From: an uncultured Akkermansia sp.
GTDB lineage: Bacteria > Verrucomicrobiota > Verrucomicrobiia > Verrucomicrobiales > Akkermansiaceae
Length of the DNA: 64,000 nucleotides
Direction of reading: 5' to 3'
Assembly (NCBI GenBank): GCA_947589345.1
Contig: CANQAC010000002.1
Location: 41,692 to 105,691, forward strand
The stretch's first letter is position 1; each line of letters opens with the position of its first letter. Positions 34,580 through 48,280 of this stretch are shown piece after piece. Below the pieces are notes generated by a model. It did no database searches. It was not told where the DNA came from and saw only the letters and a program-made list of their open reading frames with translations. Made by a program: the position numbers and the translations under genes.

Positions 34580-35266
34580 TTGATAACTAAAAGAGAAGCA
34601 GACTTGACAACTGAGCATCAGATTTGGTACGCTGGCCGGGTGAAATGGTTGCTACGATTCGCGGCGCTATCAGCGTTGTTTGTGCTGAATTCATGTGCAT
34701 ACATGCAAACGCATAAAAACGTGGAAGAGCTTGGATCATACTATGAAGGGTATGTATTAAACTGTCAAGATCTCCGTGTCTATCATAACCCGACAATAAA
34801 AAAGTGGTACATTAATGCTCATCCTGCCCATCTGAAGTTGCATTATCCAAGCATACACGATTCTGTTTTCCGACGGTCAGATAACCTATCATCTTTCCGG
34901 GAAATTCAGGTCATGCCAGACTTTGTTTATTTCCCCATTAGTGAATCGACTGCTCAAGTTTTACTCAGAAAAGATGGTTATATCCAGATAGAAGTACTTG
35001 CCGATGAAATTCAAAAATCCTTTGGAAGTGTCGTGGAAAAAAACAGTACTCTAAAGTCACATTCTATTCTCGCTCAGATAGATGGCAACAAGTCTTTCCA
35101 AATTTCCTCCGGTATTCGCGTTCCGTCTCAAAAAAATCTCATCAATCAGGTCTTAAGCAAGGTTGACTTGATTCTTGTGGATGTACCGGGTACCCTCGCT
35201 TACAATGTTGCTATTCCTTTCGTTGCGCCTTTTGTTTTCTTCAACAGCTTTCTGAGAGAAAATTAA
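34580..35266 (+). CDS. Hypothetical lipoprotein
   Basis: Signal peptide with lipobox-like LNSC (LLRFAALSALFVLNSCAYM); probable GTG start near 34640. Confidence 0.65.
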   Translation: MITKREADLTTEHQIWYAGRVKWLLRFAALSALFVLNSCAYMQTHKNVEELGSYYEGYVLNCQDLRVYHNPTIKKWYINAHPAHLKLHYPSIHDSVFRRSDNLSSFREIQVMPDFVYFPISESTAQVLLRKDGYIQIEVLADEIQKSFGSVVEKNSTLKSHSILAQIDGNKSFQISSGIRVPSQKNLINQVLSKVDLILVDVPGTLAYNVAIPFVAPFVFFNSFLREN

Positions 35267-35300: not shown

Positions 35301-35390
35301 TGTGAATAAGTCTGTGAATAAGACGTTGACAAGTGTGAATAAATCGATTTCTTCACGGAAGTTTTTTTGTTATTCTCCTTGTTATCCACA
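35301..35390. other. Candidate replication origin core: DnaA-box cluster
   Basis: TGTGAATAA (reverse complement of TTATTCACA) at 35301-35309, 35313-35321 and 35334-35342, and TTATCCACA at 35382-35390, in an AT-rich intergenic region. Confidence 0.75.
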
Positions 35391-46188: not shown

Positions 46189-46194
46189 TACCAC

Positions 46195-46379
46195 CGCTGC
46201 TGCACTCGTGACGCGCGGACACTAAAGCCCGGACCGTTAGACTATACCAAGGGAGCATCAAGGAAAAGGGTTTCATGTTCCGTCCCTTAGTGGATACCTC
46301 AGGTAAACCCGACCTCGCACCCACCTGAACTTAGGGAACGTGGCTTCCTCACCGCCGACGGTGCAGCGGCTTTTTCTTT
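46195..46379 (+). ncRNA. ssrS: 6S RNA-like regulatory RNA
   Basis: About 176-nt element closed by a 10-bp stem GCTGCTGCAC/GTGCAGCGGC (46196-46205 with 46361-46370, one G-U), followed by TTTTTCTTT; internal CACCTGAACTTAGGGAACGTGGC resembles the 6S 3' arm; no ORF. Confidence 0.68.
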
Positions 46380-46407: not shown

Positions 46408-46423
46408 TGTTCCACGTGGAACA
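46408..46423. promoter_or_regulatory. parS-like ParB-binding palindrome 1
   Basis: Perfect 16-bp palindrome TGTTCCACGTGGAACA. Confidence 0.82.
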
Positions 46424-46461: not shown

Positions 46462-48252
46462 GTGTATAAGGACGGCGCAATGATAACACTACCTGGACAG
46501 ATAGCAAAAAAATTGACTAAGGCTTTGCGTGATGAGTTGGGCGATGCATTGCCGAGAGATTTTTGCGCCACGGTGACGGTGAGTCAGGACTTGCGGTATG
46601 GGGATTATCAGAGTAATGAGGCAATGGTGCTGGCGAAGGTGGCGCGGAGAAATCCACGAGAGTTAGCACAGGCAGTGGTTGCTAAACTGGGAGACATGAC
46701 AGAAGCCGAGGTGAGTTTAGCTGGTCCCGGTTTTATTAATTTTCGTATTAAATCTGAAAAATATGTTGAGTGCTTGATGGACATGCTGAGAGATGAACGT
46801 CTCGGTGTACCATTAGTTGAGTGCCCCCAAAAAATTGTCATTGATTTTTCAGCGCCGAATGTAGCAAAGCCCATGCACGTCGGTCATATTCGTTCCACAA
46901 TCATTGGCGATACACTAGCGCGGCTGGCGCGTTTCATGGGTCATACCGTCATTACTGATAACCACATAGGCGATTGGGGTACCCAATTTGGCATGATTCT
47001 CTGGGGATGGAAAAACTTGGTTGATCAAGCTGCACTGGAGCAACATCCCATAGAGGTTCTCCTCACCACCTACAAGGAGGTAAACAAGCGTTGTAAGGAG
47101 CAGCCGGAGTTGCTTGAAGCATGCAAATCTGAACTTGTGCGCTTGCAGAGCGGCGATCCCGATAATCTGGCTATTTGGAAACGCTGCATTGAGGTTACTA
47201 AAACCGGCTTAAAAAAGATTTATGATCAACTTGACATCCACTTCGACTATTGGCTTGGAGAAAGTTTCTATAATGATGCACTCGCGCCATTGGTGAAGGA
47301 TTTGATGGCACGAGGCATTGCTCGAGAGAGTGAGGGCGCTGTTTGTGTGTTTTCCGACGGGTTTCATGCTCCCCAGGATGATCCTTTCCTCGTGAATAAG
47401 GATGGGGAGTGGCAGCCTGTGCCGGCGATTATTCGTAAGGCAGATGGAGGGTTCTTGTATGCCACCACGGATCTCGCTACACTTGATTACCGAATCCGTG
47501 AGTTCCAAGCAGATTCCATCTGGTATGTTGTCGGGGCGCCGCAGGAAAAACATTTTAAACAGATTTTTGATATTGCCCGAATGCGCGACATTACCGGTGA
47601 TTTCCGTCATGTTGCGTTCGGCTCTATCCTCGGTAAAGACCGGCGCCCATTTAAAACGCGAGATGGAGAAACCGTGAGTCTTCAAGATGTCATTGATGAA
47701 GCGATAGAGCGTGCCGCTCGCGTGGTTCAAGAGAAAAGTCCTGATATGCCGACAGATGAAAAAGATGCTGTGGCAGAAGCGGTCGGCATCGGAGCTATTA
47801 AGTTCGCAGAACTTTCTCAAAACCGTCTTAGCGATTATATCTTTGACTGGGATAAAATGCTTTCCCTTTCCGGAGATACCGCCCCTTACCTTCAAAATTC
47901 CTACGTCCGAGTTCGAGCTATTGAACGCAAGAGCGGAATTCCTGATTTTTCCGTTTTTCTTTCTGACAGAGCTTGTATACGCCTCTCTGAGGACCGTGAA
48001 ATAAATCTCGCACACGCACTTTGCCGCTTCGCGGAGGTGGTGCCGGCCACGCTGGATGACTGTCGCCCCAATTTATTGACGGCTTACCTCTATGACCTTG
48101 CTCGAGCCTTTCATAGTTTTTACGAGGCGTGTCCTGTGTTGCGCAGTGAAGATTCCGTGCGCTTCTCTCGCCTCGCTCTCTGTGAACTCACAGCGCGTGT
48201 CCTTAAGCTTGGCATGAGTTTATTGGGCATCCGCATGCTCGAACGAATGTAA
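46462..48252 (+). CDS. argS: Arginyl-tRNA synthetase
   Basis: DFSAPNVAKPMHVGHIRSTIIGD (HIGH), FGSILGKDRRPFKTRDGE, C-terminal SLLGIRMLERM. Confidence 0.97.
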   Translation: MYKDGAMITLPGQIAKKLTKALRDELGDALPRDFCATVTVSQDLRYGDYQSNEAMVLAKVARRNPRELAQAVVAKLGDMTEAEVSLAGPGFINFRIKSEKYVECLMDMLRDERLGVPLVECPQKIVIDFSAPNVAKPMHVGHIRSTIIGDTLARLARFMGHTVITDNHIGDWGTQFGMILWGWKNLVDQAALEQHPIEVLLTTYKEVNKRCKEQPELLEACKSELVRLQSGDPDNLAIWKRCIEVTKTGLKKIYDQLDIHFDYWLGESFYNDALAPLVKDLMARGIARESEGAVCVFSDGFHAPQDDPFLVNKDGEWQPVPAIIRKADGGFLYATTDLATLDYRIREFQADSIWYVVGAPQEKHFKQIFDIARMRDITGDFRHVAFGSILGKDRRPFKTRDGETVSLQDVIDEAIERAARVVQEKSPDMPTDEKDAVAEAVGIGAIKFAELSQNRLSDYIFDWDKMLSLSGDTAPYLQNSYVRVRAIERKSGIPDFSVFLSDRACIRLSEDREINLAHALCRFAEVVPATLDDCRPNLLTAYLYDLARAFHSFYEACPVLRSEDSVRFSRLALCELTARVLKLGMSLLGIRMLERM

Positions 48253-48254
48253 AT

Positions 48255-48280
48255 GGAATTGTTCCACGTGGAACAATTCC
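48255..48280. promoter_or_regulatory. parS-like ParB-binding palindrome 2
   Basis: Perfect 26-bp palindrome GGAATTGTTCCACGTGGAACAATTCC containing the same 16-mer core. Confidence 0.84.

Follow-up and report, generated by a model that had tools for sequence, protein, structure and literature searches.

Two probable chromosomal parS sites bracket argS near the putative replication origin of an uncultured Akkermansia species

Introduction

Bacterial chromosomal parS sites (consensus TGTTTCACGTGAAACA) are 16-bp palindromes that are present in few copies near oriC, and the chromosomal ParABS systems they belong to comprise a ParA and a cognate ParB with parS-specific residues. An origin-proximal parA-parB operon is typical of these systems, but not obligatory. 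Two residues are reported to be specific for parS over the Noc-binding NBS, an R and a G that are absolutely conserved in ParB and replaced by Q and R in Noc (PMC7383237). A Hi-C study of A. muciniphila YL44 reported parS sites and ParABS homologues together with the absence of any known condensin homologue (PMC10197239), and Streptococcus pneumoniae or Staphylococcus aureus have ParB and SMC without ParA (PMC7333895).

Here, we consider a stretch of 64,000 nucleotides from an uncultured Akkermansia sp., which we call the window. Two identical palindromes on either side of its argS gene are, in our judgment, chromosomal parS sites, the centromere-like elements by which a ParABS system would segregate the replicated chromosomes of this gut bacterium (probability about 0.95). 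As such the pair is canonical, an ordinary element of a known type; what is less usual is that parA and parB are unlinked and that Smc-ScpA was not detected. The window genome resembles that of A. muciniphila YL44 in having parS and ParABS homologues and in that condensin was not found. Like S. pneumoniae and S. aureus it shows a pared-down ParABS-SMC set, but the reduction runs in the opposite direction, with ParA retained and Smc-ScpAB not detected.

The Sites and Their Surroundings

The initial annotation had described a perfect parS-like palindrome upstream of argS, and the 16-mer lies exactly where it had been placed (Table 1, site 1); the count was incomplete, as a second exact copy just past the gene had been overlooked. 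Site 1 is 38 bp from the GTG start of argS and site 2 begins 7 bp past its stop codon, such that the gene is bracketed by two copies whose starts are 1852 bp (1.85 kb) apart. Both match the parS family pattern TGTTYCACGTGRAACA over 16 bp. At the positions that read TC/GA in the idealised consensus they show CC/GG, as do most sites of the order.

Table 1. Positions of the parS sites and of associated features, in window coordinates
Feature	Position	Strand	Remarks
parS site 1	46408..46423	.	TGTTCCACGTGGAACA; intergenic, between 6S-like RNA and argS
parS site 2	48260..48275	.	Same 16-mer as site 1; just past the argS stop
argS, arginine--tRNA ligase	46462..48252	+	TIGR00456, 517 bits; Pfam; neighbour outside the par system
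6S RNA candidate	46191-46376	+	Full-length match to Rfam RF00013 at 31.9 bits (E 7e-5); gathering score 46.4
Four DnaA boxes (TTATNCACA), putative oriC	35301..35390	.	
Conserved ORF	34580-35266	+	Adjoins the DnaA boxes; no Pfam or NCBIfam match

A genome-wide search for the 16-mer had been proposed in the initial annotation, with the caveat that a motif scattered around the genome, or a genome lacking parAB, would speak against parS. Over the whole draft assembly (2,254,970 bases in 102 contigs, 99.55% complete) and with up to two mismatches allowed, the search returned just the two copies of TGTTCCACGTGGAACA that flank argS, near oriC and nowhere else.

At site 2 the 16-mer forms the centre of a longer perfect palindrome of 26 bp (48255-48280, GGAATTGTTCCACGTGGAACAATTCC), and at site 1 the palindrome has no extension past the 16 bp. 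Elsewhere in Akkermansia the extension ranges from 0 to 9 bp, and because its length varies in this way across the sites of the genus we do not consider it essential. At three related loci (L152, L153, and L164) the parS 5' of argS sits inside a longer palindrome with 7-9 extra bp per side, which could perhaps double as a hairpin or terminator.

As for the position of site 1 between a 6S-like RNA and argS, also given in the initial annotation, the site is indeed intergenic and the RNA is plausible by Rfam as a divergent 6S RNA candidate, scoring below the gathering score.

Location Relative to the Origin

The DnaA-box cluster, placed between the conserved ORF and ribD, is 11.1 kb from site 1, in keeping with the figure of about 11 kb reported initially, and 13.0 kb from site 2. 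The cumulative GC skew of the contig reaches its minimum at about 38-43 kb of the window. By both markers, the DnaA boxes and the skew minimum, the copies are few and clustered near oriC. In two relatives assembled as single contigs, G004 and G015, the GC skew changes sign at the one parS present, and a cluster of DnaA boxes next to ribD is 1.7-1.9 kb from that site. The earlier argument that parS backs the origin call thus holds.

Many Akkermansia species have parS within 1-2 kb of DnaA boxes or ribD, and in many the gene order is parS-argS-parS-ORF-DnaA boxes-ribD; homologues of the window's conserved ORF are found beside parS in relatives at 32-42% identity. In the window's clade, argS and its two parS sites lie some 10-13 kb off, in the window past mfd and bamA, and the 11-kb gap between parS and the DnaA boxes reflects a local rearrangement. 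A. muciniphila-type genomes have a single site near ribD, whereas the window has two, one on each side of argS and both 11-13 kb from the DnaA boxes, and their tight placement around one gene is unlike that of typical chromosomal parS. The pair pins down where the origin region of this uncultured Akkermansia lies, and in metagenome bins of the genus parS can serve as a reliable marker of ori.

Conservation of the Motif

The relatives of the window's ArgS within Akkermansia are 67-85% identical to it, the nearest coming from rabbit-gut metagenome bins. In the five closest (81-85%), argS likewise has a parS before and after it, and all corresponding sites (10/10) are identical at 16 of 16 positions; the flanks of these sites are only 20-30% identical, which is the random level in a 40-bp, ungapped comparison, and the upstream spacing between parS and argS ranges from 39 to 437 bp. 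Strong purifying selection therefore acts on exactly the 16 bp, independently of the flanking DNA. In two relatives (L113 and L114) a repeat that starts with AAGG(C/T)AGCC(T/G)(C/G)CGG(C/A)(T/G)GCC directly abuts parS (L113 9800-9850 and 11796-11846; L114 9652-9702 and 11810-11860), and some of its copies then continue with TACGAAGTACG-like units; it looks as if a mobile repeat had been inserted beside parS.

The exact family motif was found in 46 of 59 relatives, representing 15 of 17 genera and including other families, with no match to the reversed control pattern. Genomes without it mostly have a clustered one-step variant, TGTTCCACATGGAACA / TGTTCCATGTGGAACA. Within Akkermansia, 72 of 76 genomes have either the motif or the CACATG form, at 1-6 sites each and clustered near oriC, again with no match to the reversed control. 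The degenerate pattern (CACGTG or CACATG form) was not found in the other 4 of the 76. Three of these have a completeness of 80-84%, and in the fourth, G008, there is a site with one mismatch.

The association with argS is narrower. No parS adjoins argS at the 22 more distant argS loci of the order (0/22), yet many families among them have the motif elsewhere in the genome, and the argS-parS link is therefore limited to part of Akkermansia.

Near argS, across the genus, the CACATG variant outnumbers the perfect site (85 vs. 63). A single transition at the central CpG converts CACGTG to CACATG/CATGTG, and many Akkermansia genomes hold both forms. Since genomes mix the forms and the ParB recognition region is unchanged, we take CACATG to be tolerated mutational drift. 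A switch in ParB specificity was considered and rejected, both on account of this mixing and because G022, which has A/T-centred sites only, and G009, which also has CACGTG, are identical in the ParB recognition region shown. On inspection by eye, the asymmetric sites did not keep to one orientation with respect to argS.

ParB and ParA

One strong ParB is encoded in the window genome (contig C3, 296 aa). Solved structures of ParB/Spo0J align with the greater part of this protein (E ~1e-44), and it also matches TIGR00180. Its own protein sequence displays the ParA-contacting motif LGKGLSAL at the N terminus, the CTP-box GERR, and the equivalents of R173 and G201; the same genome thus has a cognate ParB with parS-specific recognition residues. 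It also encodes a Soj-type ParA (contig C13, 260 aa; AAA_31, 185 bits), a deviant Walker ATPase with KGGVGKT, so that the caveat regarding parAB does not apply.

Unlike in typical chromosomal ParABS systems, parA and parB are linked neither to each other nor to parS, from which both are distant. The three are on separate contigs in the window genome, where parB stands between an aminopeptidase-like gene and hisC, and parA neighbors phosphoribosyltransferase-like and tyrosine-recombinase-like genes. G004 (3.18 Mb) has parS at 1.240, parB at 2.218, and parA at 2.305 Mb, which puts parB 0.98 Mb from parS; in G015 (3.50 Mb) the positions are 0.427, 2.522, and 2.154 Mb, respectively, with parB 1.40 Mb away. 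No origin-proximal parA-parB operon was found in the window genome, G004, or G015, and the positions in the latter two indicate that parA and parB in Akkermansia are separated from each other and remote from the origin. Nor was parB found in the 1.5-kb flanks of parA in a genome of another family (G041). As parA, parB, and parS are unlinked on different contigs, what ties them together is family membership and not an operon. The recombinase gene close to parA is XerC/D-like (G000 contig C13, L224 1480-2262 and 3019-3510), and in G015 the maximum of the GC skew is close to parA, which puts that gene towards the terminus.

If these proteins behave as their families do, ParB dimers would recognise the 16-mer with their helix-turn-helix and, once loaded with CTP, form closed clamps that spread across the argS-oriC region; ParA would then pull the ParB-parS complex, and the new origin with it, apart. 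ParB binding, CTP-dependent spreading, and force generation are thus what we would predict at these sites.

Other Readings of the Palindromes

It is important to ask whether the sites might serve a Noc-like nucleoid-occlusion protein instead of a partition ParB, since among the NCBIfam models it is nucleoid_noc that gives this ParB its highest score. We consider this very improbable. That score (231.7) is short of the cut-off of 315, the two specificity positions are occupied by R and G in this protein but by Q and R in Noc, and the NBS core is a different one (TATTTCCCGGGAAATA, CCCGGG-centred; PMC7383237). Noc sites are, moreover, scattered, whereas those of the window genome are confined to one place; neither the Q...R residues nor scattered CCCGGG-centred sites were found. 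Equally hard to credit is an RNA hairpin or an operator of argS or the 6S RNA that has no connection with segregation. Site 1 is admittedly just 5' of argS, and site 2 forms its perfect 26-bp palindrome immediately past the stop. However, the same 16-mer stands beside ribD, not argS, in A. muciniphila-type genomes, the distant argS loci of the order do without an adjoining site while many of their families have the motif elsewhere, and it is the exact sequence that is kept, beyond what mere base pairing would demand.

Finally, for a CACGTG-centred palindrome arising by chance we see no argument at all, and its probability is negligible: about 0.0005 exact copies would be expected in 2.25 Mb (at equal base frequencies) against the two observed 1.85 kb apart, and conservation of the motif across the genus refutes this reading. 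Partition parS thus remains the reading that we adopt.

Condensin in Akkermansia and Its Order

Condensins were surveyed by profile searches for Smc (TIGR02168), ScpA (PF02616), and MksF (PF11855). Among the 37 Akkermansia genomes (G000-G036), Smc above the cut-off was found in none, nor was ScpA; among the 22 genomes from other genera of the order, Smc is present in 21 and ScpA in 20. MksF was not found in Akkermansia, the single match among the 59 genomes being in another genus (G045). Long SMC_N matches were rejected as Smc, as their translations read as SbcC-, RecN-, or RecF-like.

Akkermansia therefore seems to have lost the Smc-ScpAB condensin, the usual partner of parS. What this adds to the previous report (PMC10197239) is the genus-wide extent of the absence of Smc and ScpA, and the finding that Akkermansia differs in this from other genera of its order. 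The window genome, G000, is one of the 37, and neither Smc nor ScpA, on which Smc-ScpAB loading at parS depends, was found in it. Because Smc-ScpA was not found across the genus, the sites most likely work through ParA alone and not through condensin loading; barring an unrecognised SMC, a condensin-loading role of parS is unlikely here.

A broader proposal, to which we give somewhat better than even odds, is that Akkermansia lost Smc-ScpAB, has no MksF, and kept a split ParABS, such that parS acts without any known condensin while its sites drift copy by copy to the asymmetric CACATG form, tolerated by the same ParB. The genus would then be a natural case of ParB-parS working without Smc-ScpAB, in which what parS does through ParA can be told apart from its part in condensin loading with no need for mutants.

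The MksF match outside Akkermansia deserves a brief remark. An MksF-like (DUF3375) protein is encoded in G045 (contig C89:54313-55674, L252), a genome of a related genus without Smc and ScpA; it is possibly a condensin replacement or part of a Wadjet-type system.
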